DNA of 32,046 nt. It comes from a virus. Both the position numbers and the translations under genes were made by a program. How positions within the stretch are numbered: position 1 is the stretch's first letter; every line of letters begins with the position of its first letter. The notes below the pieces were generated by a model. It did not search any database. It was not told the origin of the DNA and saw only the letters and a program-made list of their open reading frames with translations. Location: positions 1-32,046 of the IMG/VR virus record IMGVR_UViG_3300031999_000131, one strand, 5' to 3'. Shown here piece by piece: positions 158-25,739 of this stretch.

Positions 158-1673
158 CGAGGCCGGGGCTGGCGGCGCCGCTGGTGATGGTGACGCGCAG
201 GCCGATCTGGCGGAGGAGGGCCTTGGTGGCCTGAAGATCGGTTCTGGCAGACCACCTCCGGCGGAAGGTGTCGATGGAGGGGGCGACCAGCTCAGCGAAA
301 GTCTGGCCCATGGTCTCCCGATCCAGGCGAGTGATGACGGTTCGCTTCTGCTCAAGCTCGGCCTGGATGGTCTCCAGTTCCTCCTCGAGCCGCTCCCGAT
401 GGCTGTAATATTCGGAGCGATCGATGAGCAAGGCCTCATAGTCCCGGGTCCATTGCTCCAGGCCCCGCAGGATCCTGTTCTCAGCGGCTTGTAGACTCGC
501 CACCTCATCGGCGGCATCGGCGTGTCCCCGATCGGCCAGGAGCAGCAGTTCCTCCTCGAGGAGGCTAGGTTCGGTGGCGCGCTCGATGAGCCAATTCAGC
601 ACCTGCTCCTCGACCTGATCCAGACGGAGACCATTGCGCGGGGTCGGCCTGGCGCACTCCGATCGGGGCCGCGGGCAGATCAGGTAATGGTAGAGGCCTC
701 TGGTGCTGCCTCCCCCGGTGATGGTCATGCGGCCCCCACAGTACCCGCAGTAGACGAAACCCGAAAGTTGGTAGTTGGTATAGGGATGCCTCTTGCCCTG
801 CTCGCGCCTGGCCGCCATCTCGCGTTGCGCCGCCTGCCAGGTCTCCTCCGGGATGATGGCTTGATGCTTGCCCTCGGCGGAGACCAAATCGACAGAGTCG
901 CGCCAGTCCCGCTTACGATGGTCCCAGCGGCGCCAGCTCACCCGGCCGGCATAGTAGGGCAAGCTCAGCATGTGTTTGACGGCTGTGGCGTTGTGGGGAT
1001 AGCGCTCGGTGGCATGGGCGCGGGCCAGGCGGAGGATGGCCTCGTAGGTCTGGCCTTCCAAGAACCAGGTGAAGATGCGCCGGACCAGATCGGCCTCGGG
1101 TCCATAAGGCACACCGTAACCCTCCTCACCGAGATGATAGCCGAAGGGGAGGTGATTGTTGGGGTGATAGCCGTCCTTGACGCGCCGGCGGGTGCCCATG
1201 CGGAAGCGCGCCTGGAGCTCCGCCACCTCATCCTGGGCCCGGGCTCGCTCGACGGAGCGCATCCAGATCGAGGCGCGATCGCGCTGTTCGGCGAACTGCA
1301 CCGGCTGCTGGACGGTGGTGGGCATGGAGAGGGAGAGCACCTGCACATTGTAGGAGGCCAGGTACTCCTCCACCTGGGCGATCAGCGCATCGGTGCGGCC
1401 GAGCCTGTCACGTCCACGGCAGATGAGCAGGTCAATACTACCCGAACGGGCTATTGACATCAGTTCTGTGTACACAGGCATATCGACGGCGGCATCGGCG
1501 AGGAAGATGTAACTCCTACTGTGGCCGGGAATGACGAGGGGTTCCTGGGCTTCATGCCAGCCGTCGGTGCGTTCGATGAGGCTGCGGCCGGCCTCGATCT
1601 GGGAGGGGATGGAATCCTTTTCGTCTGAGGCCTGGGAGGGACTGCTGACGGCGGCCCAGATCACACACCTCAT
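150..1673 (-). CDS. Large serine recombinase (probable phage integrase)
   Basis: Site-specific recombinase of 507 residues, in the normal size range for large serine integrases. The N-terminal resolvase domain (about 1-145) has the nucleophile Ser10 in WAAVSSPSQ and the DRLGR motif (Arg90, Arg93, matching Arg68/Arg71 of gamma-delta resolvase). A recombinase domain follows (about 160-290), then a zinc ribbon (Cys309, Cys312, Cys333, Cys340) and a coiled coil (about 385-455). Oddly, the usual Arg of the YxRVS motif is Ala8 here. No good Shine-Dalgarno precedes the ATG; a 16-base palindrome occupies that place. It is the last gene of the minus-strand lysogeny block and abuts host folC, the expected position for an integrase at a prophage end. 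Confidence 0.93.
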   Translation of the reverse strand: MRCVIWAAVSSPSQASDEKDSIPSQIEAGRSLIERTDGWHEAQEPLVIPGHSRSYIFLADAAVDMPVYTELMSIARSGSIDLLICRGRDRLGRTDALIAQVEEYLASYNVQVLSLSMPTTVQQPVQFAEQRDRASIWMRSVERARAQDEVAELQARFRMGTRRRVKDGYHPNNHLPFGYHLGEEGYGVPYGPEADLVRRIFTWFLEGQTYEAILRLARAHATERYPHNATAVKHMLSLPYYAGRVSWRRWDHRKRDWRDSVDLVSAEGKHQAIIPEETWQAAQREMAARREQGKRHPYTNYQLSGFVYCGYCGGRMTITGGGSTRGLYHYLICPRPRSECARPTPRNGLRLDQVEEQVLNWLIERATEPSLLEEELLLLADRGHADAADEVASLQAAENRILRGLEQWTRDYEALLIDRSEYYSHRERLEEELETIQAELEQKRTVITRLDRETMGQTFAELVAPSIDTFRRRWSARTDLQATKALLRQIGLRVTITSGAASPGLDA

Positions 1674-1705: not shown

Positions 1706-2500
1706 CTATCCGCATAGAGTCTCGCACGGCCTTCCATCATGATCATTGTCAAGCTGTGAGGGGTCGCCCGGGCAGGCATGCCAATAGGACATCACTTCCT
1801 CGCAAGAAGAGAAGTCGCCACAGTTGTATAGGTTCCCGTTGCAGTCCCACTCCGCCGTAGGAGGAACCGTCTCTTGGGGAACGGACTCGACCCAAAGTCC
1901 TCTTCCCGCTTCTCTGGCTTCCCGTTCTAGTTGCACAAAGAGATCCGCATGAGCGACATCTGGCGGATAGGTCGCGGCTTGAGCGTAGCCCCGGCGGACC
2001 AATTCAGCATTGACGAAAAGGTCCCCAGCATAGACATATCGCAGCAGGCGGTCATAGCGGTCTGTTTCAGAGACATCCTTGTCCAACTGGACGACCTGTC
2101 CCTCCACTAACTGCCTGTTTACCTCGGTGGCCTCACTACCGCCTGCCTGGTCGGTTTCGGGCGTGTTGATGCCGATATAGCGCACGGTGTAGATCCGTCC
2201 GGCGATGTCAACCTCTATGGTATCGCCATCAATGATGCGTGTAACCATGGCCTCAGTCCTGGCGGGCTGTGTCGGCGGCCCGGCAGGGAGCGTAGTCCCT
2301 GTTGGTGTGGCGGCATCCGTTGGTGTGGCAGTATGAGTGTTAGTGGGCGTAGGCATCAAAGTACTCGTCGCCACGTACGTTGGTGTGTATGTGGGTGTGG
2401 CCGTCCAGGCAATCGGCTCGGCCAGAGGGGGGCCTTCAGGCAAGAGGCTGCAAGAAATCGCTAGAATCGCTGCCAGGCAGACGATGATCATGGCTTTCAT
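1706..2500 (-). CDS. Secreted lipoprotein-type thermonuclease with Excalibur domain
   Basis: Predicted exported Ca-dependent nuclease of 264 residues. An N-terminal signal segment (1-16) precedes Cys17 in a lipobox-like AISC, suggesting membrane anchoring outside the cell. A Thr/Pro-rich stalk covers about 34-80. The staphylococcal-nuclease domain covers about 85-203, with DGDT (Asp91, Asp93), Arg107 in VRYIG, Glu115 in NTPE and Arg151 in RYDR, matching Arg35, Glu43 and Arg87 of the S. aureus enzyme. Asp40 of that enzyme is Asn112 here. The C-terminus (218-264) has an Excalibur pattern with six Cys and DNDHDGRPCE. The start has a GGAGGAG site and overlaps the repressor stop by 4 bases (ATGA), so it is probably made in lysogens together with the repressor. 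Confidence 0.9.
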   Translation of the reverse strand: MKAMIIVCLAAILAISCSLLPEGPPLAEPIAWTATPTYTPTYVATSTLMPTPTNTHTATPTDAATPTGTTLPAGPPTQPARTEAMVTRIIDGDTIEVDIAGRIYTVRYIGINTPETDQAGGSEATEVNRQLVEGQVVQLDKDVSETDRYDRLLRYVYAGDLFVNAELVRRGYAQAATYPPDVAHADLFVQLEREAREAGRGLWVESVPQETVPPTAEWDCNGNLYNCGDFSSCEEVMSYWHACPGDPSQLDNDHDGRPCETLCG

Positions 2501-3567: not shown

Positions 3568-5652
3568 ATGAGACCAATCCGCTTGAGCATGACCAACTTC
3601 ATGCCCTACGCCCAACCGACGGAGCTGGACCTGTCGAGTCTGCACCTGGCCTGTCTGGCCGGCGAGAACGGCCACGGCAAGTCGGCGATCATCGATGCGA
3701 TCACCTGGGCATTGTGGGGGCAAGCACGAGCGCGGCGCGATGACGAGCTGATCCACCTCGGTGAGGAGCAGATGGAGGTCCGGCTGGACTTCCAGCTTGG
3801 CGATGAGCAGTACCGGGTCATCCGCCAGAGGGACAGCGCCGGCAGAGGGAACTCCACCCTGGAGTTCCAGGTCGGCAGTAACGGCCACTGGAGCCCGCTC
3901 ACCGGCGATACCATGCGGGAGACCCAGGAGATCATCGACTCCACGATCCACATGGACTACGACACCTTCATCAACTCCGCCCTCCTGCTGCAGGGCCGCG
4001 CGGATGAGTTCAGCAACCAGCCCCCGGGAAAGCGCAAGGAGATCCTGGCGCAGATCCTGAACCTGGGGGTGTGGGAGGTCCTGGAAGAGCGCGCGAAGCA
4101 ACACGTGCGGGAGGCAGAGGGGCAACTCACCGCGATCGCGTCCAAGGCCGAGGTTATGCGGGGCGATCTAGAGAGGCTGCCGGACTACGAGGCGGCGCTG
4201 GAGATGGCGGCCGGCGAGGCGCAGCGACTTGGTGCCGAACTGGAGGAAGCGCAGCAGGTGCTCAGCCAGGTGAAGGAGAAGGCGGCTGAACTTGGTTTCC
4301 AGAGACAGGGGCTGGCGGACCTGGAGAGGGAGATCGAGGTCAGGAAGCAGGAGGTGGCGGCCATACAGAGGCGGATCTCCGAGACCGATAGCTCGAAACT
4401 GGCGGCCTGTGCGGTGGAACTCGACGACATTCGGGCAAGACTGGCCGGCGTCGAGGAACTTCCGGCGGAAGGCGAGTCGATGGAGGAGAAAGAGATTGCT
4501 CGTCTGACGGCCCTTTCCGCAACCCTGAAAGCAAGGAATGACGGATTGAAGGCGGACATGGACGCGCTGCGGGAGGAGATGAATCTCCTGGAACAGGCAG
4601 GCGCCGCGTGTCCGGTTTGTGATTCTGAACTGACCGAGGAGCATCGGGGGGAGATCCTGGCGCAGAAGCAGACTGAGGGCGAATCGAAGGCGACTCAGTT
4701 CCGCGAGAACGCAGCCACAATCAAGGACGCCGAGCATAACCTGCAAAGATGGCAACAGCAATGGGCCGAGCGAAAGCAAAGCGTGACGCAGGGGAATCGC
4801 CTGCGGGTCCAGGAGAGCGAGTTGCTAGGCAAGATCGCCCAGCTCCAGGCGCAGGAGCAGAGAGTCGCCGAGTGGCAGGAGCAAGAGACGGCGCTGCGAG
4901 AGGGAATTGTCGAGAACGAGTTCAGGCAAAAGGAGATGCAGGCAGAGGTCCGAAATCTCCAATTACTGGCGGCGGGCGCGGATGAGGCCCGGCGGCAGGT
5001 GGACCGCCTAGGCGATGAGGTATCCCGGGCGAACCTGCGGGTGGGGGCGGCGACACAGCAGATCGACCACTGCCAATACCTGCGGGGTGAGGCTGAGAAA
5101 CTGGAGGCGCAACAGGCGGAGGAGACAGCGAAGAAGGCCACCTACGACGAGCTGCGGAAGGCCTTCGGCAAGCGCGGGATCCAGGCGATGATCATCGAAA
5201 CGGTGCTGCCAGAGATCGAGGAGAATGCCAACGAGCTGCTGGCGCGGATGAGCGACGGGCGGATGAGCGTGTCCTTCGAGAGCCAGCGGGAGACGAAGAA
5301 GGGCGACATCGCGGAGACGCTGGACATCCAGGTGAGCGACGAGCTGGGGGTGAGGAGCTACGACCTGTTCAGCGGTGGGGAGAGGTTCCGGCTGGATTTC
5401 GCCATCAGGATCGCCATCTCCAAGCTCCTCGCGCGGAGGGCCGGGGCCAGATTGCAGACGCTGATCATGGACGAGGGCTTTGGGAGCCAGGATGCCAGTG
5501 GGAGGGACCGGCTCGTGGAGGCGATTCAATCCGTGGCTGGTGACTTCGAGCTGATCCTGGTAGTGACGCACATCGACGAACTGAGAGAGGCTTTCCCGAA
5601 CCGGATCGAGGTGGTGAAGGGTCCGGCGGGGAGCCTGATCAGTGTGAACTAG
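3568..5652 (+). CDS. sbcC: SbcC/Rad50-type DNA repair ATPase
   Basis: SMC-like ATPase that works with SbcD (Mre11) to trim DNA ends and open hairpins. Visible motifs: Walker A GENGHGKS (32-39), long coiled coils (about 170-560), a zinc hook CPVC (348-351) at the coiled-coil turn, the ABC signature SGGER (602-606) and Walker B LIMDE (632-636) with the catalytic Glu636. At 694 residues it is shorter than E. coli SbcC (about 1,048) and nearer phage forms such as T4 gp46. A strong GGGAGGAG precedes the ATG. The sbcD partner lies downstream, separated only by a MazG-like gene. Confidence 0.95.
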   Translation: MRPIRLSMTNFMPYAQPTELDLSSLHLACLAGENGHGKSAIIDAITWALWGQARARRDDELIHLGEEQMEVRLDFQLGDEQYRVIRQRDSAGRGNSTLEFQVGSNGHWSPLTGDTMRETQEIIDSTIHMDYDTFINSALLLQGRADEFSNQPPGKRKEILAQILNLGVWEVLEERAKQHVREAEGQLTAIASKAEVMRGDLERLPDYEAALEMAAGEAQRLGAELEEAQQVLSQVKEKAAELGFQRQGLADLEREIEVRKQEVAAIQRRISETDSSKLAACAVELDDIRARLAGVEELPAEGESMEEKEIARLTALSATLKARNDGLKADMDALREEMNLLEQAGAACPVCDSELTEEHRGEILAQKQTEGESKATQFRENAATIKDAEHNLQRWQQQWAERKQSVTQGNRLRVQESELLGKIAQLQAQEQRVAEWQEQETALREGIVENEFRQKEMQAEVRNLQLLAAGADEARRQVDRLGDEVSRANLRVGAATQQIDHCQYLRGEAEKLEAQQAEETAKKATYDELRKAFGKRGIQAMIIETVLPEIEENANELLARMSDGRMSVSFESQRETKKGDIAETLDIQVSDELGVRSYDLFSGGERFRLDFAIRIAISKLLARRAGARLQTLIMDEGFGSQDASGRDRLVEAIQSVAGDFELILVVTHIDELREAFPNRIEVVKGPAGSLISVN

Positions 5653-5661
5653 GAGAACATC

Positions 5662-5985
5662 ATGGACCTGCAGGAATTCATCGCCAAGTGGTATGAAAGC
5701 AAGGGTTATAAAGCTGGGCCCACAACGCTGGCCTTGGGTGCCGTAGAAGAGATCGGCGAACTTAGCGAACCGATCTTACTGACGCAGTGCGCCGATTTCC
5801 AGTGCAGCAATCATAAGCGGAAATTGATCGAAACGGACCTGGTCCGAATCAATGTCGCGGCAGAGGTAGGCGATGTATTGATCTACCTATTGGCTCTCTG
5901 CAATAGCTTGGGCATCCGACCATATCTGAAATGCCTTAGCGCTGAAGTGAAGATTCTTGTAGAGGCAACGGGGGTGAGAGCATGA
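5662..5985 (+). CDS. MazG-like nucleotide pyrophosphohydrolase
   Basis: 107-residue protein of the all-alpha NTP pyrophosphatase type, which hydrolyses (d)NTPs to monophosphates. The metal-binding EExxE is seen as Glu29, Glu30, Glu33 (VEEIGELSE), and ExxD as Glu68 and Asp71 (EVGDVLIYLL). It lies between sbcC and sbcD, with its stop overlapping the sbcD start by 4 bases. Base composition is visibly more AT-rich than both neighbours, suggesting a later insertion into an sbcC-sbcD pair. Phage MazG proteins are proposed to alter nucleotide pools or alarmone levels; the substrate cannot be read from sequence. Confidence 0.82.
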   Translation: MDLQEFIAKWYESKGYKAGPTTLALGAVEEIGELSEPILLTQCADFQCSNHKRKLIETDLVRINVAAEVGDVLIYLLALCNSLGIRPYLKCLSAEVKILVEATGVRA

Positions 5986-7214
5986 AGATCCTGCACTTCG
6001 CCGACGCGCATCTGGGCGCGGATGACAGCGGGCCCATCGTGCCGGAGACGGGACTGAGCACGAGGCTGACGGATTTCCTGGGCTCGCTGGATGCCATCGT
6101 GGAGTACGTGGAGACCCACGAGATCGACTTGGTGATCTTCGCCGGCGATGGCTACAAGACGCGGACCCCGACACCGACGCTGGTGAGGGAACTCTGCCGG
6201 CGCCTCGCCAGGATTGCCGACACCTGCCCGCTGGTGTGGGTCATCGGCAACCACGACCTGCCTGGGGACGCGGCGCGCGCTAATACGGCGGAGATCTTGG
6301 GGACCCTGGCCGTGCGGGGGATCACCATCATGGACCTGCCCAAGATCACCCACCTCGCCACCACCTCGGGATCAGTGCAGATCATAGGCATCCCCTGGCC
6401 GACGCGCCACAACGTGATGGCATCGGAGAAGGTGGCAGGATTGCCCGCGGATGAGGTCAACAGGCTAATCGCAGCGGCGGTGGGAGACACGATCAGAAAG
6501 CTCGCGCAGCAGGCCGATCCGAACTGGCCGACCATCTTGGCCGCTCATCTCACGGTGGAGGGCGGGGCCTTCGGTGGGGAGCGATCGGTGATGCTGGGCA
6601 GCGACATCGTGATCCCGCTGGAGGCGGTGGCGCTGCCGCAGTTCGATTATGTGGCGCTCGGGCACCTGCACCGCCACCAGCAGCTCTACAACAACCCGCC
6701 GATCGTGTACTCGGGGAGCATCGAGAGGCTGGATTTCGGCGAGGAGAAGGAGGAGAAGGGGTTCGTGGTGGTGACCCTGGGCCAGCACCAGGGCGACGAA
6801 CTGTTTGGCGAGGGCGCATACACCGAGGTCGAGTTCGTTCCCCTGCCAGTGCGGCGGTTCCAGACGATCGCCGTCCACCTGGATGGGACGGATCCCACCA
6901 ATGCCGTGATGCAGTCGATCCAGGAGAGCCAGATCGACGGGGCGGTCGTCAGGGTGATCATCGAGGGGACGGCGCAGGCAGCGGCCATGCTGGATGAGGG
7001 CGCCATACACAAGGCGCTGGAGGGGGCGCTGAGAGCCACGGTGAGCAAACAGATCGAGCGTGTGACAAGAACTCGGCTGGATGGTCTCAGGTATGAGGAA
7101 ATGAAACCGCTGGAGCTGCTCGAGGCCTGGTTCGGCAGCAACGGCAAGCCGCCAGAGGAGCGAGAGGCGCTGATGAAGGCGGCGCAGGAATTGATGATGG
7201 AGGTGACGACGTGA
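5982..7214 (+). CDS. sbcD: SbcD/Mre11-type exonuclease
   Basis: Calcineurin-like phosphoesterase, 410 residues, the nuclease partner of SbcC. Metal-binding motifs are in order: Asp8 and His10 (FADAHLG), Asp56 (AGDGY), Asn90-His91-Asp92 (GNHD), His189 (AAHLTVEGG), and His228/His230 (GHLH). These cover the known two-metal centre. The C-terminal part (about 275-400) would be the capping and SbcC-binding region. The ATG overlaps the mazG-like stop (ATGA), and the gene overlaps the next start (GTGA), so all are translated as one coupled set. Together with SbcC it may process phage replication ends or aid recombination. Confidence 0.95.
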   Translation: MKILHFADAHLGADDSGPIVPETGLSTRLTDFLGSLDAIVEYVETHEIDLVIFAGDGYKTRTPTPTLVRELCRRLARIADTCPLVWVIGNHDLPGDAARANTAEILGTLAVRGITIMDLPKITHLATTSGSVQIIGIPWPTRHNVMASEKVAGLPADEVNRLIAAAVGDTIRKLAQQADPNWPTILAAHLTVEGGAFGGERSVMLGSDIVIPLEAVALPQFDYVALGHLHRHQQLYNNPPIVYSGSIERLDFGEEKEEKGFVVVTLGQHQGDELFGEGAYTEVEFVPLPVRRFQTIAVHLDGTDPTNAVMQSIQESQIDGAVVRVIIEGTAQAAAMLDEGAIHKALEGALRATVSKQIERVTRTRLDGLRYEEMKPLELLEAWFGSNGKPPEEREALMKAAQELMMEVTT

Positions 7215-8143
7215 CGATCAAAGGCATGAAAGACACCTACCGGCCGAAGAAGCTGGGCCGGATAGGGCTGGGAATCAAGGTCCCGGTGGAGGACGAGCAC
7301 GGCGAGATCAAGATGCGGGATGGCAAGGAAGTGACCCGGCCCCAGGCGGTGGATCACTTCGTAGTGCCCCAAGAGGTTGCAGAGATCTATGGCCCCGAAC
7401 CGAAGCGGCTCCCGATCTACTTCCTGATGGACCGTGAGGAGGACGTGTTCCCCCACAGTCTGATGCTGTACGCGGGCCGAGGTCTGGTCTGCATGGGAGA
7501 TGGAGAGAAGGTGCTCTTCCGCAGGCACATCATGGGCAAGGAGAGCGACGTCCTGGTCTATGGAGGCGTGGCGAAATGGGATGCCCTCAAGCGCAACGGT
7601 GTCCTCGATCAATGGGCCAGTGCGGAGGGGTACGGCACGATAGAGAAATGCGGGAACAGCGTGCGCTGTCTGTACAGGCAATGCCCCCGGCACAAGCCAA
7701 CGAAGTGTCGCCCCACCGGAATGCTGCGCTTCAGCGTCAAGGGGATCGTGCGGCAAGGGTACTACCAGATGACCATCCACCTGAACCCGATGGAGGAGCT
7801 ACTCTCTCAGCTCAGACACGGACGGGAGTTCATCGAGCAATACTGTGGCCGGCCGACGATCATGCACGCCAATTGGATCCTGGAGCTGACGGGGCCCGAG
7901 AAGCAGTGGGTGGACGGCCACCCATTGACCCTCTACACACCGCGGTTGGAGCTGGAGCCCGGGCCGGATGGCTGGATGGCCCGGGCCATGGAAGGCCGGG
8001 TGAGATTGCCCCACATGGAACGGATCACCGAGGAGGACGTCTGGGGGCCGAAGGAGACCGAGCCGCCGATGGATGCCGAGGTGCTGGAGGACTTACCTTA
8101 CGATCCTACGCCTGAGGGCGAAGATGATGATCTGGCGTTCTGA
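7211..8143 (+). CDS. phiC31 gp3-like protein (candidate recombination directionality factor)
   Basis: 310-residue protein. The order of motifs (a LGRIGLGIK start, AVDHFVVP, YGPEPKRLPIYF, a GLVCMGDG segment, then a four-Cys cluster Cys147, Cys153, Cys158, Cys166 followed by GMLRF) is one I recognise from a phage family often called 'hydrolase or metal-binding protein'. That family also includes gp3, the recombination directionality factor of phage phiC31. The Cys cluster probably binds zinc. The C-terminus is acidic. It starts with GTG overlapping the sbcD stop. A serine integrase is present in this prophage, so an RDF role is attractive, but many relatives occur in replication modules and their role is unproven. 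Confidence 0.6.
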   Translation: MTIKGMKDTYRPKKLGRIGLGIKVPVEDEHGEIKMRDGKEVTRPQAVDHFVVPQEVAEIYGPEPKRLPIYFLMDREEDVFPHSLMLYAGRGLVCMGDGEKVLFRRHIMGKESDVLVYGGVAKWDALKRNGVLDQWASAEGYGTIEKCGNSVRCLYRQCPRHKPTKCRPTGMLRFSVKGIVRQGYYQMTIHLNPMEELLSQLRHGREFIEQYCGRPTIMHANWILELTGPEKQWVDGHPLTLYTPRLELEPGPDGWMARAMEGRVRLPHMERITEEDVWGPKETEPPMDAEVLEDLPYDPTPEGEDDDLAF

Positions 8144-14377: not shown

Positions 14378-14569
14378 ATGAAGATCGAGGAGATTGGGGG
14401 CGATCGCTATGAATCGTTTGAGGGAGCACGCCGAGCGAACATCGGCGCCCTTGTCGAACTGCTCCATCGCCAGATTGAGGCCGGTATAGCAGAAGGGCGG
14501 TATGTTGTGAGAGATGGCAAGGTCATGCTTTCGGAAGAAGCCAAGGGAGATACTAGCGATGACAAATGA
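14378..14569 (+). CDS. Hypothetical early protein, 63 residues
   Basis: Not recognised. A short, mostly helical protein (FEGARRANIGALVELLHRQI) with an acidic end. It overlaps the start of the tyrosine recombinase by 11 bases and shares its more AT-rich composition, so the two may have arrived together. It could be a small accessory factor of that recombinase, but there is no motif to show it. Confidence 0.55.
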   Translation: MKIEEIGGDRYESFEGARRANIGALVELLHRQIEAGIAEGRYVVRDGKVMLSEEAKGDTSDDK

Positions 14570-15485
14570 GACGATGAGGCAGTTCAGGAGTTTCTTGAGG
14601 GAGGAATTGCCAAGTCCGCCTTGGTCTTCGAATACACACAGGACGTATTCCGCGCAGGCGCACCAATTCCTGTGGTGGTGTGAAAATCTGGGCCTGGATT
14701 TCCGTAACCTGGGACATCAAGACATTGTGCAATACCGAGCATATTTGATGGATATGCCCTATTCGGTTAGCACGATCGGTGGTCGTCTAAACGCGATCCG
14801 GAAACTTTATCGGATGCTACAGGTGCGCGAACATCGCATCGACAACCCCGCGGAAGGTCTCCGAGCACCTATTGATGTGCGGGATCCCGAGACGAGAACC
14901 AAGATCTTTACAGAGCAGCAGCTCGCCGCGCTATTCTCTGCGCCCGATATATACACGCAAATAGGCATTCGCGATCGCGCGATCCTGGCACTGTTCGCGG
15001 GCCAAGCCTTGCGGCGTATGGAGGTGGCTGGGCTTCTATGCGAGCAGGTAGATTTGGAGGGGCCAACTATTTTGGTGATCGGGAAAGCGAGAAAGCAGCG
15101 CACGCTCTTCCTTGGGGATGTGCCAGCAACCTGCTTGGGAGATTGGCTGCGGATCAGGGACGAAATAGCGGCCAAGGGCGAACATGCGGTCTTCGTCCGC
15201 ACACACAGCGGTGGAAATGGTGGTGTGGGCAAGCGTCTTTCATTGACATCAATAAACAGATTGGTGGACAAGTATCTCAACGAGTTGGGACTCAAGGAAC
15301 GAGGGATTGGGCCTCATACCTTTCGACGTACAGTCGCATCGATCATCTACGATGAGGGGGCTAGGATGCAGCATGTCCAGCGCTTGCTGGGACATGACGA
15401 CCCGCGTCAGACCAGCAGGTATATACACATCCTGGATCCTGTCGCCAGCAATCCTGCGCGGTTGATGGACAGGCTGCTGAGATGA
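14559..15485 (+). CDS. Tyrosine recombinase (XerC/D-like)
   Basis: 308 residues. The start at 14559 follows AAGGGAG; an earlier ATG would add 15 residues. The N-terminal SAM-like DNA-binding domain (about 1-100) is followed by the catalytic domain with the full set: Arg152 (ALRRMEVAGL), Lys179 (GKARKQR), His253 and Arg256 (HTFRR), His279 (LLGHDD) and Tyr288. It should cut and rejoin DNA through a 3'-phosphotyrosine. It is not at the prophage end; a serine integrase holds that place, so this enzyme may resolve dimers or circularise phage DNA, or be a passenger. Codon use is more AT-rich than on either side, a sign of transfer. It overlaps the RusA-like gene (ATGA). Confidence 0.93.
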   Translation: MTNETMRQFRSFLREELPSPPWSSNTHRTYSAQAHQFLWWCENLGLDFRNLGHQDIVQYRAYLMDMPYSVSTIGGRLNAIRKLYRMLQVREHRIDNPAEGLRAPIDVRDPETRTKIFTEQQLAALFSAPDIYTQIGIRDRAILALFAGQALRRMEVAGLLCEQVDLEGPTILVIGKARKQRTLFLGDVPATCLGDWLRIRDEIAAKGEHAVFVRTHSGGNGGVGKRLSLTSINRLVDKYLNELGLKERGIGPHTFRRTVASIIYDEGARMQHVQRLLGHDDPRQTSRYIHILDPVASNPARLMDRLLR

Positions 15486-16484: not shown

Positions 16485-16922
16485 ATGACACGAGGGAAGA
16501 AGCGCTCACCAGAGGACATCGAGATAGGGCTCCAGGCGCTCGCTGAGACGGGGGGGAATGCCGAGGAGGCGTCCCGCAAGACGGGCATCCCGGCCAATAC
16601 CCTGCGCGAGTGGAAGCTCCAGTTCGGAGATGAGTTCGGAGAGCTTCGGAGAGAAAAACGCTCCGACCTGATCGAGGACGTCTGGGCAGCGGCGGCCGAG
16701 GCGTTGGGATTCCTGCGAAAGAAGCTGCGGCGAATGAAAGGCAAAGACCTGGCCGTGACCTATGGTATTTTGACCGACAAAGCGCTACTGCTGGGCGGGG
16801 AGCCAACCGGGATCAACGAGAACCGCGAGAAGCCGATGATCTATTTGCCCAAGGTGGAGGATGATCCCTTGGAGGGCGAGCCCGGGACCTCAGTGGAGGT
16901 TCCATCAAAGCCCGGCGTTTGA
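16485..16922 (+). CDS. Terminase small subunit (probable)
   Basis: 145 residues. The N-terminal half (8-50) is a homeodomain-like HTH (GLQALAETGGNAEEASRKTG, then PANTLREWK), as in DNA-recognising small terminases. A helical middle (about 60-105) would make the ring, and an acidic C-terminus follows. It directly precedes and overlaps the large subunit gene by 62 bases, the standard order. No Shine-Dalgarno is visible before the ATG. It would bind the phage pac or cos site; no such site is identified here. Confidence 0.8.
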   Translation: MTRGKKRSPEDIEIGLQALAETGGNAEEASRKTGIPANTLREWKLQFGDEFGELRREKRSDLIEDVWAAAAEALGFLRKKLRRMKGKDLAVTYGILTDKALLLGGEPTGINENREKPMIYLPKVEDDPLEGEPGTSVEVPSKPGV

Positions 16923-18186
16923 GGTTCTGTATGGTGGACAGGCGGGCGGGGGCAAGACGGAATCGCTGCTCATCGAGGCGCTCCGTCACGTGCACGTCCC
17001 GGGTTACAACGGCATCCTATTTCGTCGCACCTTTCCAGAGCTAGAGCAACCCCAAGGCCTGATTGAGCGCAGCCGCGAGTTCTGTCCGAGGTTGGGGGGG
17101 CGGTTCAACGAGACCAAGACGGCATGGCGGTTTCCCGCCAAGTCCATGGTGCTGTTCAGACACATGGAGGGCGAGCCGGACCGGCTGAAACATCAGAGCG
17201 CGGAGTATGCCTACATCGGTTTCGATGAGCTGACTACCTTCACTGAGCAGCAGTATCTCTACCTCTTCAGCCGAGCGAGGACGACTTGCGGAGTAGTGCC
17301 CAAGATCAGGGCGGGGACCAATCCGGGTGGAATCGGTCATGAGTGGGTGAAACGCCGGTGGGGACCGTGGCTCGATAGGAGCCATCCGAGACCAGCGAAA
17401 GATGGCGAGGTCCGTTGGTTCAAGAGGGAGGGCGGCGAGGAAGTAGAATGCGCGCCAAACGACCCAGATGGGCTGTCGCGGACGTTCATCCGCTCGAGCG
17501 TATGGGACAACCCGTACCTGCTGAAGCGGGATCCGGGCTATGTGGCGCGGTTAAAGGCGCTGCCGCTGGTGGATCGACAGCGGCTCCTGGAAGGCAACTG
17601 GGATGTGATGGCCGGGGCCGGGAACGTGATCAGGCGGGAATGGTTCGAGATTGTCCAGGCGGTGCCGGCGGAGGCGGTGAGGGCGAGATACTGGGACCTG
17701 GCGGCCACGGAGAAGCAGGTCTCGGGCAACGATCCAGACTATACCGCCAGGGCGAAGCTGGCCCGGCACAATGGGGTCTACTACATCGAGGAAGTAGCGG
17801 CGGTGCAGCGGCGGTGGGCATCGGTCAAGGCCCTGCTGGTGCAGGTAGCGGAACTCGATGGCGCCGAGGTAATCATCGGGGTGGAGCAGGAGCCGGGGGC
17901 CTCGGGCAAGGCGCTGATCTACGAGATCGTGAGCCACCCGGGCTTGCAGGGGCGGTTCACGGTGCGGGGATACGCGCCCAGGAAGGACAAAGTGCAGAGG
18001 GCCAATATCTGGGCCAGCCAGGCACAGGTAGGGAACGTCAAACTGGTGAAGGGCGATTGGGACATGGAGGCCTTCCTGGCGGAGTGCGAGATGTTCCCGG
18101 AGGGCGTACACGATGACAGGGTTGACGCCGTGAGCGGGGCGGTGCACATGCTGGAGCGCGCCGGCTCGCTGATCGATTTCGGGTGA
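16861..18186 (+). CDS. terL: Terminase large subunit
   Basis: Packaging motor and nuclease, 441 residues. The ATPase has Walker A GGQAGGGKT (25-33) and Walker B YIGFDE with Asp122 and Glu123. The RNase H-like nuclease has Asp279 (RYWDLAATEK), an acidic pair Glu342/Glu344 (GVEQEPG) and Asp418/Asp419/Asp422 (HDDRVDAVSG). All key residues are in place. The start overlaps the small subunit gene; GTGGAGG touches the ATG with almost no spacer, so coupling is likely. The portal gene follows after 7 bases. Confidence 0.96.
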   Translation: MIPWRASPGPQWRFHQSPAFEVLYGGQAGGGKTESLLIEALRHVHVPGYNGILFRRTFPELEQPQGLIERSREFCPRLGGRFNETKTAWRFPAKSMVLFRHMEGEPDRLKHQSAEYAYIGFDELTTFTEQQYLYLFSRARTTCGVVPKIRAGTNPGGIGHEWVKRRWGPWLDRSHPRPAKDGEVRWFKREGGEEVECAPNDPDGLSRTFIRSSVWDNPYLLKRDPGYVARLKALPLVDRQRLLEGNWDVMAGAGNVIRREWFEIVQAVPAEAVRARYWDLAATEKQVSGNDPDYTARAKLARHNGVYYIEEVAAVQRRWASVKALLVQVAELDGAEVIIGVEQEPGASGKALIYEIVSHPGLQGRFTVRGYAPRKDKVQRANIWASQAQVGNVKLVKGDWDMEAFLAECEMFPEGVHDDRVDAVSGAVHMLERAGSLIDFG

Positions 18187-18193: not shown

Positions 18194-19633
18194 ATGCCGC
18201 AGTGGCTCGATCAGTTGCTGAAGGGGTTCGGTTATCTGAGGGCGGATAGCGCGTTGCCCATGGTGGTCAGGGAGATCGCGGCCAACGCCGAGCAGAGGGA
18301 GGAGTTGTGGAGACCCGATCAATCGCGGGGCTACATGGACGCCTACGAGAAGGTCTCCTGGATCTACGGAGCGGTGAGCAGGATCGCGGAGGCGGCGGCC
18401 TTCGTGCCGTTTCACGTGACCGAGGTGGAGCAAGAGGAAGAGGAGCAGATCACCGATCACCCCTTCGAGAAGCTGCTGCGCCGGCCGAACCCGCAGATGG
18501 CACAGTTCCAGCTCATGGAGCAGACGGTAGGCTTCCTGAAGACGACGGGGAACGCCTTCTGGTATCTGAACATCGTGGGCAACGAGCCGAAGGAGATCTG
18601 GAACCTGAGGCCCGATCGGATGCGCCCCATCCCCGATCGGAAGGAGTACATCAAGGGCTGGATCTACGACATCGAGGGGCATGAGGAGACGCTGGAAGCC
18701 AGAGAGGTGGTGTGGTTCTCGCACTGGCACCCGCAGAAGGAGTTCATGGGGCTGTCTCCAGTGGCAGCCGCAGCCATGGCGGTAGAGACCGATAGCGCCG
18801 CTGCCGATTACAACCGCAAGTTCTTCGGGCAGGATGCAGCCAAGCCAGCCGGCATGGTGGTCATCGAGGAGATGGTCCCTGACGGCGAGTTCAAGCGGGT
18901 GAAGAAGGAATGGCTGGAAAGCTTCGGGGGCACGGAGCGCAGGACGGCCTTCACTCGCGGCCAGGCGGTGAAGTGGCAACAAGTGGGCCTGTCGCAGGAG
19001 GACATGCAGTGGCTGGAGGGGCGCAAGTTCTCCCAGGAAGAGATCATGACTGGTATCTACAACATCCCGCCGGGGATGTACAGGGAGAGCGCGACCCAGG
19101 CCAATGCCAAGATCGCCCGCGAGGTGTTCCTGGGCGACGTGATCTGGCCGATGCTGGTGAGGCTGGCGCAGACGATCACGGCCCGGGTGTTGATCCCCTT
19201 CTACGGCGAGGAGCTGGAGGGGCAGTTCGAGGACATCCGGCCGGTGGACCGGGCGCTCCTGGTGCAGGAGATGACGGCGGCCATGAATCCCATGCTGCCT
19301 TTGCTGACGGTGGATGAGGCGAGACGGCGGTACTTCCAGTTGGGGCCGATGGAGGTCGAGGAGGAAGAGCCAAAGCCCGAGGAGCCTGAGGTTGAACCCG
19401 AGGCCCCAGAGTCCGAAGAGGAAGTCCTGGAGCTGGACGAACATGAGGAGATCAGGGGCGAGCTGGAGAAGTGGCAGAGGAAGGCCAGGCGCTGGCTCAA
19501 GGATCGTGGGACTGCGGACGCCCCATTTAATACTGCCCAGGTTCCTGCTGGGGTGGCCGGGGCTATCCGCTACCGATTGGCAGAGGCAAAGACGGCGGAG
19601 GAGGTGAAAGCGGCCTTCGCGGTCCCCTTTTGA
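18194..19633 (+). CDS. Portal protein (HK97/SPP1-type)
   Basis: 479 residues, normal size. It forms the dodecameric ring through which DNA enters the head and to which the tail joins. Typical portal sequence: YMDAYEKVSWIYGAVSRIAE near 50-70, then ITDHPFEKLLRRPN, GNAFWYLNIVG, IWNLRPDRM, and FSHWHPQKEFMGLSPVAAAA. After about 375 there is a long acidic Glu/Pro stretch (about 390-420), then a small helical end domain (WQRKARRWLKDRG, YRLAEAKTAEEVKAAF). The acidic linker plus end domain is an extra beyond the basic fold. It is placed after terL as in most siphoviruses. Confidence 0.93.
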   Translation: MPQWLDQLLKGFGYLRADSALPMVVREIAANAEQREELWRPDQSRGYMDAYEKVSWIYGAVSRIAEAAAFVPFHVTEVEQEEEEQITDHPFEKLLRRPNPQMAQFQLMEQTVGFLKTTGNAFWYLNIVGNEPKEIWNLRPDRMRPIPDRKEYIKGWIYDIEGHEETLEAREVVWFSHWHPQKEFMGLSPVAAAAMAVETDSAAADYNRKFFGQDAAKPAGMVVIEEMVPDGEFKRVKKEWLESFGGTERRTAFTRGQAVKWQQVGLSQEDMQWLEGRKFSQEEIMTGIYNIPPGMYRESATQANAKIAREVFLGDVIWPMLVRLAQTITARVLIPFYGEELEGQFEDIRPVDRALLVQEMTAAMNPMLPLLTVDEARRRYFQLGPMEVEEEEPKPEEPEVEPEAPESEEEVLELDEHEEIRGELEKWQRKARRWLKDRGTADAPFNTAQVPAGVAGAIRYRLAEAKTAEEVKAAFAVPF

Positions 19634-19637: not shown

Positions 19638-20465
19638 GTGGGGCTATATGCCTGGGCGAAGGCGATGGATGCAGGGGCCCGGGCGTGGGAGGTCCGCTTC
19701 AAGGAGGCGGCGAGAGGGCAGTTCCAGCGGGAGTTGAAGGAGCTGCTGGCGGCGCTGAAGAAGATTGGTGAAGGGAAGGCGATCGATGAGGGGGAGATCT
19801 CTGGCGGGCCGCCGGTCAACTATCAGAGCTTCCTCATCGACATCGGGCACCTGGTAGAGGTATGGGGCGGAGAATGGAGAAGCCTGTATCACCCGTTGCT
19901 GAGGGCCTACACCATAGCGCAGGGGCGCACGATCGCGGCCAGCTTCGGGATCAGTTTCGACGTGGACAACGCGGCCACCATCGCCTGGCTGGAGCAGTAC
20001 ACGATGACCTTCGCCCAGGCGCTGATGGACGTCACCGAGCGCTCGGTGAGGGATGTGGTGATCCTGGGGCAAAGCGAGGGGTGGTCCATCCCGCAGATAG
20101 CGGAGCACCTGACCGAGCTGTACAGGGGCTGGAGCGAGGATCGGGCGGAGACCATCGCCCGCACCGAGACGATCCGCAGCTCCAACGCGGGCAGCCAGCA
20201 GGTATACCAGCAGGCCGGCATAGAGCGGAAGCAGTGGCTGGCGGCCATGGATCCGTGCGAGTTCTGCGGGGAGATGGAGGACAGGTACGGGCCCAACACG
20301 GAAGGGATCGGGGTGGAGGAGATCTTCTACCCCGTGGGTAGCGACATGACAGTGGGCGAAGGTGAGGAACAGAGGCGAATCGTGTTCGACTACGAGGACG
20401 TGTATCACCCACCGCTACACCCGAATTGCAGATGCACGATCTTGCCGGTGATTGAGAGGAGTTGA
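19638..20465 (+). CDS. Head morphogenesis protein (Mu F/SPP1 gp7-like minor head protein)
   Basis: 275 residues with a GTG start four bases after the portal stop. The C-terminal half carries the minor-head signature: ETIARTETIRSSNAGSQQVY, a metal-type DPCEFCGEM, and the final HPPLHPNCRC. These Cys and His residues probably bind zinc. Proteins of this family bind the portal and act in early head assembly or DNA injection. The first half is helical with an alternating basic pattern. It overlaps the protease-capsid fusion by 4 bases (ATGA). Confidence 0.92.
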   Translation: MGLYAWAKAMDAGARAWEVRFKEAARGQFQRELKELLAALKKIGEGKAIDEGEISGGPPVNYQSFLIDIGHLVEVWGGEWRSLYHPLLRAYTIAQGRTIAASFGISFDVDNAATIAWLEQYTMTFAQALMDVTERSVRDVVILGQSEGWSIPQIAEHLTELYRGWSEDRAETIARTETIRSSNAGSQQVYQQAGIERKQWLAAMDPCEFCGEMEDRYGPNTEGIGVEEIFYPVGSDMTVGEGEEQRRIVFDYEDVYHPPLHPNCRCTILPVIERS

Positions 20466-22921
20466 CCATGCCATATCCGAGCGAACATGCGGCCAGGGTG
20501 AGAGACCCGGACGAGTTCCAGCCAAACAGCTTCAGGAACAATACGCTGTCCGGGGGAGTGCGCATGATCCTGGGGCGATTGCGGGACGAGAGCACAATGA
20601 CGGTGCAGGCCTACAGGTTCCCGGCGGACTCATACAGCGTGGAAGAGGCCAAGGCGTGGCTGAAGGAGAACGACGTGAAGGACATCCTGTTCGAGGAAGC
20701 CACGGGAGAGGAGAAGGCTATGCGGGACATGCGGAACAGGAAAGCTCAGGACGAATTGAGCCTGTCGGACATCCAGAACATGATCTGGGAAGCATTGACC
20801 CCGAGCGAAGATCGTAAACCGTATGCCATGGATGTGGACGTTTATGAGGACTACATTACCTACAGGTTTGAGGGTAAGCGCTACATCCGCAATTTCGCCA
20901 TCATCGACGGGAAGCTCCAGTTGGGCGAGGCCGTGGAGGCCAAAGTGATAGTGCAGCCCATAGGCAGCGTGAAGGCGGTGGAGGATGGGGAGCAGTGGAT
21001 CATCGAGGGGTTCGGCGCTCCCTATTACGGGCCCGAGGCTGGAAAGGACCTGGTGGGAGAATACTTCAGCGCCAAGACGGACTTTGGGCTCGACTACTAC
21101 CCGAGCCGGCCGGTGGTCTTCCACCATGGGCTGACCGAGAAGGACCCCGAGGTGATTGGCCAGGAGCTCTCGGTGGAGGAACGCAAAGGTGGCAAATGGG
21201 TGCGGGTCCTCCTGGACAAGAGCAAGGCCCTGGCCAAGACGGCCTGGGAACTGGCGAAGAAGGGCAAGCTGTTCTACTCCAGTGGGGCCATCGCCCACCT
21301 GGTGAGGAAGGCCAAAGATGGACACCTGGATAAGTGGCCGGTGGCAGAGTGGAGCCTGACGCCACAACCGATCAACAACTACGCCGTCGCAACGGCGGCG
21401 GCGAAGGCGCGTTTCGAGGCTATAGGTATCGAGTTCGACGATGGAGCTTCCTCAGACGGTGGCCGAGAACCACCGGAGGAGCGGGGCGAGCGGATACCGC
21501 CAGTCAAAGGGACGCCCAAGAAGAAAACTGGAGGTATCAAGATGGGTGAGGAGATCACTCAAGAGCAACTGAGCACACTGGTCGCTGCAGCGGTGAAGTC
21601 TGCCCAAGATCAGGCGGCCGCTGCGGCCAAGGCGGAGGCTGAGGCCAAGGAACTGGAGCAGCTCCGCAAGGACATCCCCGCCCTGCAGAAGCAGGTCGAG
21701 GAGATGAAGGGCCAGATGAACCGGAAGGGCATCTTCCCGGAGCACGAGGGCGATCAGAACGTGACCGTGATCGGGACCTTCTGGGATAAACAGGCGCCGG
21801 CGGACCGCGAATTCGCAGCCATGATGCTACAGGGCGCGGGCAAACCCCTGTCCGACGAGCTGCGCATGTCCTTGAAGGGCGGCCTGGAAGAGGGCCTACC
21901 TGCGGCTGCGCCGTGGCTACGCATGGAGGGGCTATTGGACTCCCAGATGAAGGCCATCGCGCTCATGGACAAGACCGACACCGCCAACTGGGTGCCGTCG
22001 AACTATGAGCAGCGAGTATGGGACAGGTTGCGGCTGGAGAACAGGGCTGCGGCCCAGTTCACCAACATGGACCTGCCCACGGACAGCTACAACCTGCCGA
22101 CCGCGACTGCCGGGCCGACCGTGTACAAGGTCCCGGAGCAGACGGCGGGCACGCCGACCCTGGCCACCGGGATCATCACCAGCCAGATCACCGATGCGAA
22201 GGTCACGTTCGCTACCGGGAAGATGGGCTGCGCGGTGTGGTTCTCGGGCGAGTTGGACGAGGACGGGATCATCCCGCAGTTGCCTATCGTCAGGGACCAG
22301 ATGGCCAAGGCCATGGACGAGGGTGTGGAGGGCGTCCTGCTCAACGGTGACAAGACGACCGGGACCACGAGCATCACTGTGGCCACCGCCGCCACGACCG
22401 ATGCCTGCGTGATCGCCGATGGTCTGCGCCACTTCGGGCTGGTGACCCCGGGCACATTCAAGCGGGACTGCGGCGCGCTGGACATCGACGATGCCATTGC
22501 CATCCGCCAGTTGATGGGCAAGTATGGGATCAGGCCTTCCGATCTGGTCTGGTTCTGCGACTACAACACCATCTACAAGATCGTCGGCTTCGACGAGTTC
22601 ATGACCGTCGACAAGCTGGGATCGAAGGCGGTGGTGGTGGCCGGCGAAGTGGGAGAGTTGCTGGGATCCCCGCTGGTCGTCTCGGGAGAGATGAACAAGT
22701 ACGGGGTCGATGGCAAGTTCCATGCCACGCCGACCACGGGCATTCTGATGTGCGCGCACAAGCCGTCGTGGATCGTGGGTTGGCGCCGGAGGATCAAGTT
22801 CGGTGTGAACTACTACGATCATCTCGATGCGACCCGCGTGACGGCGCTGCTCCGCATGGACTTCCAGACGTTCGGAACGACCTACGGACATGCCTGCGTG
22901 GGCTATAACATCACCTTGTAA
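20462..22921 (+). CDS. Prohead protease - scaffold - major capsid fusion protein
   Basis: 819 residues in one frame. Residues about 45-125 resemble XkdF-like N-terminal regions (YSVEEAKAWLKENDVKDILF). Residues about 170-310 read as a prohead protease, with His221/His222 (PVVFHHG), Ser273/Ser274 (FYSSGAI) and WSLTPQPIN. Residues 361-425 are an Ala/Glu/Lys coiled coil as in scaffold or delta domains. The rest (about 430-819) is an HK97-fold capsid with LMDKTDTANWVPSNYEQRVW and a C-terminal DATRVTALLRMDFQTFG. An internal ATG at 21542 (Met361) has GGAGGT six bases upstream, so capsid plus scaffold may also be made alone. Separate genes are the norm; an in-frame fusion is rare. Confidence 0.9.
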   Translation: MTMPYPSEHAARVRDPDEFQPNSFRNNTLSGGVRMILGRLRDESTMTVQAYRFPADSYSVEEAKAWLKENDVKDILFEEATGEEKAMRDMRNRKAQDELSLSDIQNMIWEALTPSEDRKPYAMDVDVYEDYITYRFEGKRYIRNFAIIDGKLQLGEAVEAKVIVQPIGSVKAVEDGEQWIIEGFGAPYYGPEAGKDLVGEYFSAKTDFGLDYYPSRPVVFHHGLTEKDPEVIGQELSVEERKGGKWVRVLLDKSKALAKTAWELAKKGKLFYSSGAIAHLVRKAKDGHLDKWPVAEWSLTPQPINNYAVATAAAKARFEAIGIEFDDGASSDGGREPPEERGERIPPVKGTPKKKTGGIKMGEEITQEQLSTLVAAAVKSAQDQAAAAAKAEAEAKELEQLRKDIPALQKQVEEMKGQMNRKGIFPEHEGDQNVTVIGTFWDKQAPADREFAAMMLQGAGKPLSDELRMSLKGGLEEGLPAAAPWLRMEGLLDSQMKAIALMDKTDTANWVPSNYEQRVWDRLRLENRAAAQFTNMDLPTDSYNLPTATAGPTVYKVPEQTAGTPTLATGIITSQITDAKVTFATGKMGCAVWFSGELDEDGIIPQLPIVRDQMAKAMDEGVEGVLLNGDKTTGTTSITVATAATTDACVIADGLRHFGLVTPGTFKRDCGALDIDDAIAIRQLMGKYGIRPSDLVWFCDYNTIYKIVGFDEFMTVDKLGSKAVVVAGEVGELLGSPLVVSGEMNKYGVDGKFHATPTTGILMCAHKPSWIVGWRRRIKFGVNYYDHLDATRVTALLRMDFQTFGTTYGHACVGYNITL
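21530..21544 (+). promoter_or_regulatory. Internal ribosome site and start for the capsid part
   Basis: GGAGGT (21530-21535), six bases, then ATG (21542) in frame inside the fusion gene, exactly at the boundary between the protease part and the scaffold coiled coil. It would yield a 459-residue scaffold-capsid protein in excess over the full-length fusion. Confidence 0.7.
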
Positions 22922-22997: not shown

Positions 22998-23546
22998 ATG
23001 GCATACGAAAGAATCGGTCTGAAGACGACGAAGAGGATCGTCCAGAACCTCAATCTCGATCCGGTGACCGGCGAACAGCATGGCACGGACCTGGACGTGG
23101 CAGGCAAGTTGAGTTCCGGCGACTCATTGGTGGGGCTGAACGTGACGGTCACGCCGACCGGGACGGCGGGGACGTGGGTCAGTGGGATCTACGCGAAGGT
23201 GACGCAGGGAAACACGAAGGCGGTCAACGGCTACATCAGCGGGGCCGAGCTGGAGGTCATCAACACCGCGAACAACGTGTCGGACAACTTCGTGCTGGTG
23301 CTGAACTCGAACAGCAGCGGGAACCAGAGGGGTCAGCACGAGTCCTACATTGCGCTGCGGAGCTACGGTACAAAGGCGGCCAACAGCTTCATCTGGATCG
23401 AGGACCAGACCATCGGGGCCGACAACGACGTGACTTCGCTGATTGCCGCAAACAACCCGACGGCAGCCACGCATACCATTCGCATCATCGTTGATGACAC
23501 GGCGTACTACTTGATGGTTTGCGCCGCGGCCAGCCTGGGTGCCTAG
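22998..23546 (+). CDS. Hypothetical head protein, 182 residues (possible decoration protein)
   Basis: Not recognised with certainty. Beta-rich, Gly/Asn/Thr-rich sequence without Cys until the end (VCAAASLGA), lying directly after the capsid gene, where head decoration or stabilising proteins are often encoded. The start has a strong GGGAGGTGAG. There is no signal peptide. The pattern SGDSLVGLNVTVTPTGTAGT and ISGAELEVINTANNVSDN suggests a beta-sandwich. The decoration role comes from position only. Confidence 0.7.
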   Translation: MAYERIGLKTTKRIVQNLNLDPVTGEQHGTDLDVAGKLSSGDSLVGLNVTVTPTGTAGTWVSGIYAKVTQGNTKAVNGYISGAELEVINTANNVSDNFVLVLNSNSSGNQRGQHESYIALRSYGTKAANSFIWIEDQTIGADNDVTSLIAANNPTAATHTIRIIVDDTAYYLMVCAAASLGA

Positions 23547-24133: not shown

Positions 24134-24508
24134 ATGGTGGCGAAGAAAAAGAGCAAGCCTATCGTAGAACCGGCGCCTGTGGACGAGGAGCTGTTCGAGG
24201 AAGCAGAGCCGGAGGAGCTGAAGCCGGACGTGCCCAGCAAGCCGAGGATGATCTTCGTGGCGATCTACCCGACGGAACATGAGGGCAGGAAGGTTCAGCC
24301 TGGGGAGATCGTCCACGTGGGCGAGGAGGAGTTCGCCGGCTGGAGCAGGGACCTGGAGAGGTCCCAGGCGAGGATGGTGATGACCCTGGAGGATGCCGAG
24401 GCCTTGAGCGCATCGATCCTGGATGGCTCGTTTGTGCTCAGCCCGGAGGTCTCACAGACGCCGCATTCGATGGCTCATGGCGGGTTCGGCACGCCCAAGG
24501 AGAAGTAG
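24134..24508 (+). CDS. Small head-region protein, 124 residues (paralogue 2)
   Basis: Function unknown. It has a Lys-rich start, then an acidic, Pro/Glu-rich stretch (about 10-36), then a domain (about 38-103) similar to the preceding gene, and a Gly/His/Ser tail. The similarity is seen in VQPGEIVHVGEEEFAGWSRD against RAGMTVLIHEDHLAEWAPEV, and in ALSASILDGSFV against ALAAKIRGGKFV. It begins six bases after the previous stop with TAGGAGGGA. The pair probably arose by duplication followed by addition of an N-terminal extension here. Confidence 0.65.
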   Translation: MVAKKKSKPIVEPAPVDEELFEEAEPEELKPDVPSKPRMIFVAIYPTEHEGRKVQPGEIVHVGEEEFAGWSRDLERSQARMVMTLEDAEALSASILDGSFVLSPEVSQTPHSMAHGGFGTPKEK

Positions 24509-24515
24509 GCGAGCA

Positions 24516-25739
24516 ATGAACGTGCTCCTGCTGACCATCGATGCGCTGCGCAGGGACCGCTGCCTGAAGGTGATGAGGCGGTTCCAGAAGTGGGCGCAGA
24601 AGGAGGCAGTGTTCTTCGCCAATCACTACAGCGTGGCCCACTGCTCCGATCCCAACTACCTGAGCATGCTGAGCGGGATCCACCCGGACGACCATGGGGT
24701 GCTGGCGCAGATCTTGCAAGCCAAGGAGGACGAGGCCTGGCCCGGCTATCCGGCCTTCCCGAGCGTGGCGGTATGGCTGAAGAAGTATTTCGGGCACAAG
24801 TGCGGGGGCTGGACGGCCACCTACCCGCGATTCTACTACTATGGTTTCGACGAGGTCAGCCCGATGGGGCGCAACGTGAAGACCTTGCCGGGCTGGGTGG
24901 GGCTGAAGGAGTTCACCGAGCGCGCGGTAACGGAGGGGCGGCCCTGGTACTTCTTCGTGAGGACCATGGATTGCCACGGGCCCTACATGCACTGGAACGC
25001 CAGGAAGGGCGAGCACCGGGCGGGGTCGTACAATAAGGCGGTGAAGTGGACGGACGAGCTCGTCGGCGATCTACTGGAGTACGTGATGGAGGAGCATCCC
25101 AACACGCTGATCGTGTTCTGCTCGGACCACGGGGAGCTGCTGGGCGAGCACGGGATGACGCAGCACTTCAGCACGCTCTACCAGGAGCTGATCCACCCGC
25201 CGATGTACCTCTACTGGCCGGGGTGCCCGGGCGGGAAGGTGGTGGAGGAGTTCACGCAGCACATCGATGTCTTCCCGACGATCTTGGACCTCTTCGGCGT
25301 AGAGGGGGAGGCGCTGGTGGAGATGCTGGCGGGGATGGATGGGCTGCCCATGACCTGGGCGATGGAGGGCCAGAGGCTCAGGGAGCGCATGACCTTCGTG
25401 GGTGAGGGGGTGTATTCGCAATCATACCAGCAGCACCGGGCGCTGATCGAGTGGCCCTGGAAGTACATCGCCACGGCGCACATTGAGGAGGGGCCGAAGT
25501 TCGAGCTGTTCAACCTGGAGGAGGACCCACAAGAGCGGAGGAACCTGGCCCGGGAGGACCCGGAGCGGACGCTGAAGATGGCGCACACGCTGGCGGGCAC
25601 GCACTGGAGGGAGACGAACTTCGTCAGGCCGGACACGGCGGAGGCCTGGGAGCACCAGTATCGAGAGGTACTGGGCGTCACGAAAGAGGAAGCGGCGGTA
25701 GTGGTGGACCGCCTGCGGGCGTTGGGATACGCGGATTGA
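24516..25739 (+). CDS. Sulfatase-superfamily hydrolase inside the head operon
   Basis: 407 residues, alkaline-phosphatase/sulfatase fold. The start at 24516 begins MNVLLLTIDALRRD with the metal Asp9. Other metal and active-site motifs: MDCHGPY (His154), SDHGELLGEHG (Asp204, His205), and HIDVFPTILDL and LFNLEEDPQERRNL, all typical. The nucleophile region reads HCSDPNYLSMLSG (Cys43, Ser44): the sulfatase motif C/S-x-P-x-R is altered, with Tyr48 in place of Arg, so formylglycine formation is doubtful and a Ser or Cys nucleophile is possible. No signal peptide is present. Its place among head genes suggests a virion-borne or lysis-time enzyme acting on sulfated or phosphorylated surface polymers; substrate unknown. 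Confidence 0.9.
   Translation: MNVLLLTIDALRRDRCLKVMRRFQKWAQKEAVFFANHYSVAHCSDPNYLSMLSGIHPDDHGVLAQILQAKEDEAWPGYPAFPSVAVWLKKYFGHKCGGWTATYPRFYYYGFDEVSPMGRNVKTLPGWVGLKEFTERAVTEGRPWYFFVRTMDCHGPYMHWNARKGEHRAGSYNKAVKWTDELVGDLLEYVMEEHPNTLIVFCSDHGELLGEHGMTQHFSTLYQELIHPPMYLYWPGCPGGKVVEEFTQHIDVFPTILDLFGVEGEALVEMLAGMDGLPMTWAMEGQRLRERMTFVGEGVYSQSYQQHRALIEWPWKYIATAHIEEGPKFELFNLEEDPQERRNLAREDPERTLKMAHTLAGTHWRETNFVRPDTAEAWEHQYREVLGVTKEEAAVVVDRLRALGYAD

Follow-up and report, generated by a model that had tools for sequence, protein, structure and literature searches.

Evidence for a conserved internal start of the capsid precursor in protease-capsid fusion genes of phages

Introduction

In a virus record of 32,046 bases, which was analysed over its full length and is called the window here, protease, scaffold and capsid lie in one frame, and this frame is very probably a nested head gene, which would yield capsid subunits in large number and protease-capsid fusions in small number. 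The fusion, as the minor product beside the many capsid subunits, would serve to place the protease inside the shell. Since a phage head takes hundreds of capsid subunits and needs few proteases, fusions of both in one gene are puzzling. An internal start at position 21542 had been proposed earlier from the letters of the window (the sequence-only reading), and the proposal gains weight from a family-wide start codon with Shine-Dalgarno (SD) sequence at the joint between protease and capsid precursor, which is found in the nearest relative L004, in fused relatives of the window's protease, and in NF045541-type and ClpP-type fusions.

The fusion itself has been known for some time. Among cultured phages, those of Synechococcus, Roseobacter, Escherichia, Halomonas, Vibrio, Pseudomonas, Acinetobacter, Rhodobacter, Xanthomonas and other hosts have fused genes that encode 600-974 residues and bear the annotation major capsid protein, and NCBIfam holds two families for protease/capsid fusions, namely NF045540 and NF045541. 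A tripartite capsid gene of the Salmonella phage Gifsy-2 was published in 2010 (Effantin et al., as cited in PMC8538268 and PMC3121763), and gene 11 of Rhodococcus phage Jflix2 is described as encoding the capsid together with the maturation protease (PMC13313380). The novelty that the sequence-only reading had suggested for a protease-scaffold-capsid fusion is not supported, as Gifsy-2, in the account of the two citing papers, and both NCBIfam families have it already. In the literature searched, where subscription papers are thinly covered, no earlier account of a start inside protease-capsid fusions was found, and a nested start conserved across the kinds of fusion appears to be undescribed there.

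Results

The head-gene module and the fusion gene

The head genes of the window stand in the order terminase, portal, Mu gpF-like protein and then the fusion frame, which extends up to 22921. The features are the following.

16861-18186, plus strand: terminase large subunit gene (PF03237, phrog_979)
18194-19633, plus strand: portal protein gene (PF04860, E 1e-54)
19638-20465, plus strand: Mu gpF-like minor head protein gene (PF04233, E 3e-9)
20468-22921, plus strand: complete fusion gene, 817 aa, ATG start, SD GAGAGGAG with dG -8.6
20468-20710, plus strand: accessory domain at the N-terminus, up to about residue 81 (45-48% identity by tblastn, E 1e-12 to 2e-13)
20969-21442, plus strand: S78-like prohead protease region, about residues 168-325 (24-row alignment, profile matches of relatives, homologue in L007)
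21443-21541, plus strand: variable, charged linker from protease to capsid precursor, poorly conserved in the L004 alignment
21530-21535, plus strand: internal SD GGAGGT, 6 nt before the ATG
21542-21544, plus strand: putative internal start ATG at residue 359, with GTG as its counterpart in L004
21542-22921, plus strand: nested capsid precursor, 459 aa, delta/scaffold followed by a T5-type HK97-fold shell domain
21542-21950, plus strand: delta (scaffold) segment, coiled coil first (approximate, from the T5 alignment)

The frame is open and free of stops from 20462 to 22921, and in this the sequence-only reading was right; the start it had taken, TTG 20462, has to give way to ATG 20468, and the nested start is residue 359 instead of 361. 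The true start is almost certainly ATG 20468, because the upstream sequence reads GAGAGGAG-TTGACC-ATG, with the SD at 6-7 bases before the ATG, while TTG 20462 directly abuts GAGGAG without spacing and lies inside the ribosome-binding site. The same reading had seen a protease-like region, a coiled coil and an HK97-like capsid in a single frame, which is borne out by the frame and by profile matches, the parts being in the order N-terminal domain, S78-like protease, charged linker, helical delta/scaffold and HK97-fold capsid.

It is hardly conceivable that two separate genes were joined here by an assembly or sequencing error, for which nothing speaks beyond the window being a single record, whereas an independent contig and many genomes of cultured phages are fused over the same boundary. 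This contig, L004, comes from another sample and is fused across the same parts at 63% identity, and together with the cultured-phage fusions it refutes the sequencing error, hiding a stop between the parts, by which the sequence-only reading had thought itself open to refutation.

Some further genes of the record may be mentioned. Directly 3' of the capsid gene lies a conserved gene (22998-23546; 5155-5709 in L004) without Pfam or PHROG match, which is a candidate for a decoration protein. The head-to-tail module contains a gene of the sulfatase/alkaline-phosphatase superfamily (24423-25739; PF00884, E 3e-27), kept at the same place in L004 (6792-7979). The 32 kb record also holds genes for an SbcC/Rad50-like ATPase and an SbcD-like nuclease with a small gene between them (3568-7214), a large serine recombinase (150-1673, minus strand), a tyrosine integrase (14514-15485, plus strand), a Gp3-like recombination directionality factor (7211-8143, plus strand), and a secreted-looking staphylococcal-nuclease-like protein with an Excalibur calcium-binding domain (1706-2500, minus strand).

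N-terminal domain, protease and capsid precursor

The N-terminal domain (YPSEHAARV...QAYRFPADSYSVEEAKAWL) is common to the fusions of the marine Synechococcus phages S-CBS1 and S-CBS3 and Roseobacter phages CRP-821 and CRP-831, and by tblastn it was not found in any other phage record. The protease segment of the window gave no match in profile searches of Pfam, PHROGs and NCBIfam, and PF14550 (XkdF-type protease) had no match in the window genome. An alignment was made of the window and 23 relatives (24 rows), where Peptidase_S78 (PF04586) is found in 3/24, TIGR01543 in 6/24 and phrog_80 (head maturation protease) in 6/24. Across this alignment the motif KDLxGE(Y/F)F is invariant or near-invariant, His220 and Ser271 are invariant and Glu294 is near-invariant (at least 90%); in the window His, Ser and the acidic residue stand in the order of Peptidase S78, the HK97 prohead protease. 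These three are candidate catalytic residues by analogy, and the window protease probably belongs to a distant branch of S78. L007 has the homologous protease as a gene of its own, of 207 residues, which stops shortly before the capsid gene, and the protease region is therefore a self-contained unit.

Residues 359-817 match TIGR01554 with 42.7 bits (cut-off 27.5; E 4e-11), and the capsid part further matches phrog_10, major head protein (E 2e-11), and the T5 capsid structures PDB 5tjt (E 2e-10) and 8ho3 (E 6e-10). The T5-type precursors 8ho3 and 8zvi have 458 residues, the mature T5 chain has 299 and the nested product of the window would have 459, a near-identity of precursor length which agrees with residues 359-817 being a complete capsid precursor. 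As window MCP position 156 aligns with chain position 20 of 5tjt, the comparison with T5 suggests that the delta segment would be cleaved off near residue 494. For the coiled coil the window offers a weak match to the Phage_scaffold HMM (E 0.04) and, in a model of low confidence, a long helix; the AlphaFold2 models, with mean pLDDT 42 for residues 1-358 and 33 for residues 359-817, were built on 2-3 usable sequences only and were left unused.

The probable internal start in the window and its nearest relative

GGAGGT and ATG 21542 are indeed present at the protease/scaffold joint, as noticed before, namely at the end of the linker. ATG 21542 surpasses all other in-frame ATG/GTG/TTG codons of the gene (73 in total) in SD strength, and an equally good score is reached at only 0.4% of the gene's codon sites. 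In L004 the SD AGAGAGGTGACAAA is followed by GTG at the homologous codon, and this exchange of ATG and GTG shows conservation of an apparent initiation site and not of methionine. By predicted mRNA structure the internal site, with an accessibility of 0.32, is not unusually open; random sites have 0.37 and the main start has 0.66. Internal initiation at 21542 is strongly supported by comparison of sequences, and the site is presumably used in the phage of the window.

The joint signal across NF045541-type fusions

For 21 genes, mostly from cultured phages, with linkers differing in length and sequence, a start codon stands at the joint in 21/21 and a recognisable SD, weak in some, in 18/21; the three genes without SD are from cyanophages and all have ATG. 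A larger set was collected by scans of IMG/VR and GTDB, which gave 175 fused loci of the NF045541 kind and 111 non-redundant ones, whose counts say nothing on the frequency of fusion as they were fetched by similarity to fusions. With the joint signal defined as an in-frame ATG with SD dG <= -5 within 40 codons of the protease end, 69% of the 111 fusions have it, compared with 12% of 1876 other in-frame windows, and with 15% and 1% when the two other frames of the same genes are scored. The ATG with the best SD of the gene falls at the joint in 54 of the 111 (7.8 expected), and SD four-mers are about 25-fold commoner at the right spacing before joint ATGs than before other ATGs, which does not hold further upstream.

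Because linkers rich in Lys, Glu and Asp could mimic SDs, a control was run in which the upstream codons were exchanged for synonymous ones. The SDs of joint ATGs are stronger than the peptide requires (Wilcoxon p 1e-10), and control ATGs show no such effect; for the window alone the test gives p 0.06. On this codon evidence the internal site is favoured beyond the amino-acid constraint (p about 1e-10). The test bears directly on the reading in which a hydrophilic linker, rich in Lys, Glu, Asp and Gly, yields the SD-like sequence as a by-product, with the methionine structural and no internal initiation at all. Such a by-product would explain the bias of the SD core to one codon phase (61/87), as Lys-Glu or Glu-Asp codons would give it, and would suit the weakness of the synonymous test per gene, but the aggregate of the test with its silent control ATGs, the enrichment of the motif confined to SD spacing, and GTG (valine) standing in for ATG make it very improbable.

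Relatives of the window's protease and ClpP-type fusions

Among fused relatives of the window's protease, SD and ATG follow the protease in L201, L202, L210, L229, L230, L236, L253, L263, L264, L273 and L278, while L239 has no good candidate for both after the protease. In the tree of the protease relatives fused and unfused genes are interspersed, with six changes needed, five of them forced by well-supported branches. Most unfused relatives have, 2-60 bases past the protease stop, a capsid gene with an SD of its own, and in L208 the two overlap; thus loss of the stop codon with the ribosome site kept would be the simplest origin of a fusion.

The unrelated ClpP-type fusions, including L286, L287, IMG/VR loci and the Escherichia phages LLS and PhiR40_1, have SD and ATG at the beginning of the capsid precursor, as in GAGGAATTTGAAAAA-ATG. 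A strict motif led to 6 loci only in the ClpP scan and a looser one to 25 non-redundant loci. Of these 25 genes 84% have the joint signal, compared with 28% of the remaining windows and 40% when the +1 frame is scored, and the support from this class is thus of lower contrast; the best-SD ATG is at the joint in 5/25, with 2.3 expected.

Fate and dosage of the protease

In Dinoroseobacter phage R4C (L022) the capsid chain of the virion (PDB 8gta) comprises residues 362-629 of the 629-residue fusion, that is the last 268, and therefore the mature shell model of R4C is without protease or delta segment. The internal start of R4C is at residue 189, far upstream of the beginning of this chain, and the R4C structure paper (PMC10276861) makes no mention of protease or cleavage. 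A rough volume estimate for T=7, which assumes an inner radius of 19-21 nm and speaks for plausibility, not proof, has the interior of the procapsid filled to 70-95% if all subunits are fusions and to 24-33% with 40 fusions.

These data have to be weighed against another reading, by which all subunits are full-length polyprotein, the protease cuts itself from each of them, and the internal ribosome site is left over, as a relic, from formerly separate genes. A relic is what one would initially expect, given that unfused relatives have a ribosome site for the capsid shortly after the stop of the protease; capsids of Gifsy-2 and R4C form from the fusion gene, as far as published descriptions go, and the internal site of the window is not specially accessible by predicted structure. 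A relic should decay, however, yet start codon and SD are kept in most of the 111 divergent fusions, where the SD is under synonymous selection, ATG and GTG are exchanged, and several hundred copies of the protease are disfavoured by the volume estimate. We regard the relic as unlikely.

Discussion

For the nested head gene, which we prefer, the following course may be proposed. Initiation at ATG 20468 would give the full-length protease-delta-capsid fusion, and initiation at the internal GGAGGT/ATG 21542 would give an ordinary capsid precursor of 459 aa, with delta and shell domain. Since delta and shell domain are common to both products, the few fusion subunits would be built in among the many short ones, and the procapsid would receive the protease by this co-assembly. 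Afterwards the delta segments would be cleaved by the protease, which would also release itself, and a shell of mature capsid protein would be left.

Beyond the window, we think it rather probable that a general rule applies to at least three kinds of fusion (T5-like with S78-like protease, NF045541 and ClpP), in which a nested start ensures high capsid output and a fusion minority delivers the protease, such that the fusion is a targeting device and not a polyprotein. A conserved nested start, if true, would answer both the dosage question and how the protease gets inside the shell. For many proteins of 600-970 residues annotated as "major capsid proteins", the main product would then begin several hundred codons further downstream, a point of consequence for structural studies, searches of mass-spectrometry data and phylogenies of the capsid.

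Comparison with known systems

Like the window, Gifsy-2 and the NF045540 class have protease, a central scaffold-like part and an HK97-fold capsid in one gene, according to the accounts available for Gifsy-2, and the members of the class analysed mostly also have SD and ATG at the joint. Unlike the window, whose protease is S78-like by its relatives, they have a ClpP-like protease and a capsid from another family, and the window has no match to NF045540.

The phages of the NF045541 kind (ep3, phiHAP-1, VP882, R4C, CRP-821, S-CBS1) share with the window an S78-type protease with delta and HK97 capsid and an internal start at the joint, and the N-terminal domain is common with CRP and S-CBS. The window differs by its T5-like capsid, by a protease placed in a distant S78 branch and by not matching the model (no match at E <= 1; cut-off 525 bits), below whose cut-off S-CBS1 and CRP-821 also fall, with E 1e-37 to 1e-39. 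Profile-profile comparison with this kind gives weak matches, A4 for the capsid part only (E 8e-4) and A3 for the protease part (E 0.06), with M359 paired with the joint methionine.

Jflix2 gene 11 resembles the window as a single gene of capsid and maturation protease, and differs as belonging to an actinophage; its description, as far as available, does not discuss an internal start. In T5, protease and capsid are separate genes. The T5 capsid pb8 (PDB 5tjt) is a sequence relative of the window capsid (E 2e-10), with a nearly identical length of the precursor. Unlike T5, the window has protease and capsid precursor fused in one gene. In lambda, an in-frame nested start in C/Nu3 gives a protease-scaffold fusion and the scaffold alone, and the capsid protein gpE is a separate gene. 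The window is like lambda C/Nu3 in its conserved in-frame internal ribosome-binding site and start codon, and unlike lambda in that the nested product would be the capsid itself.
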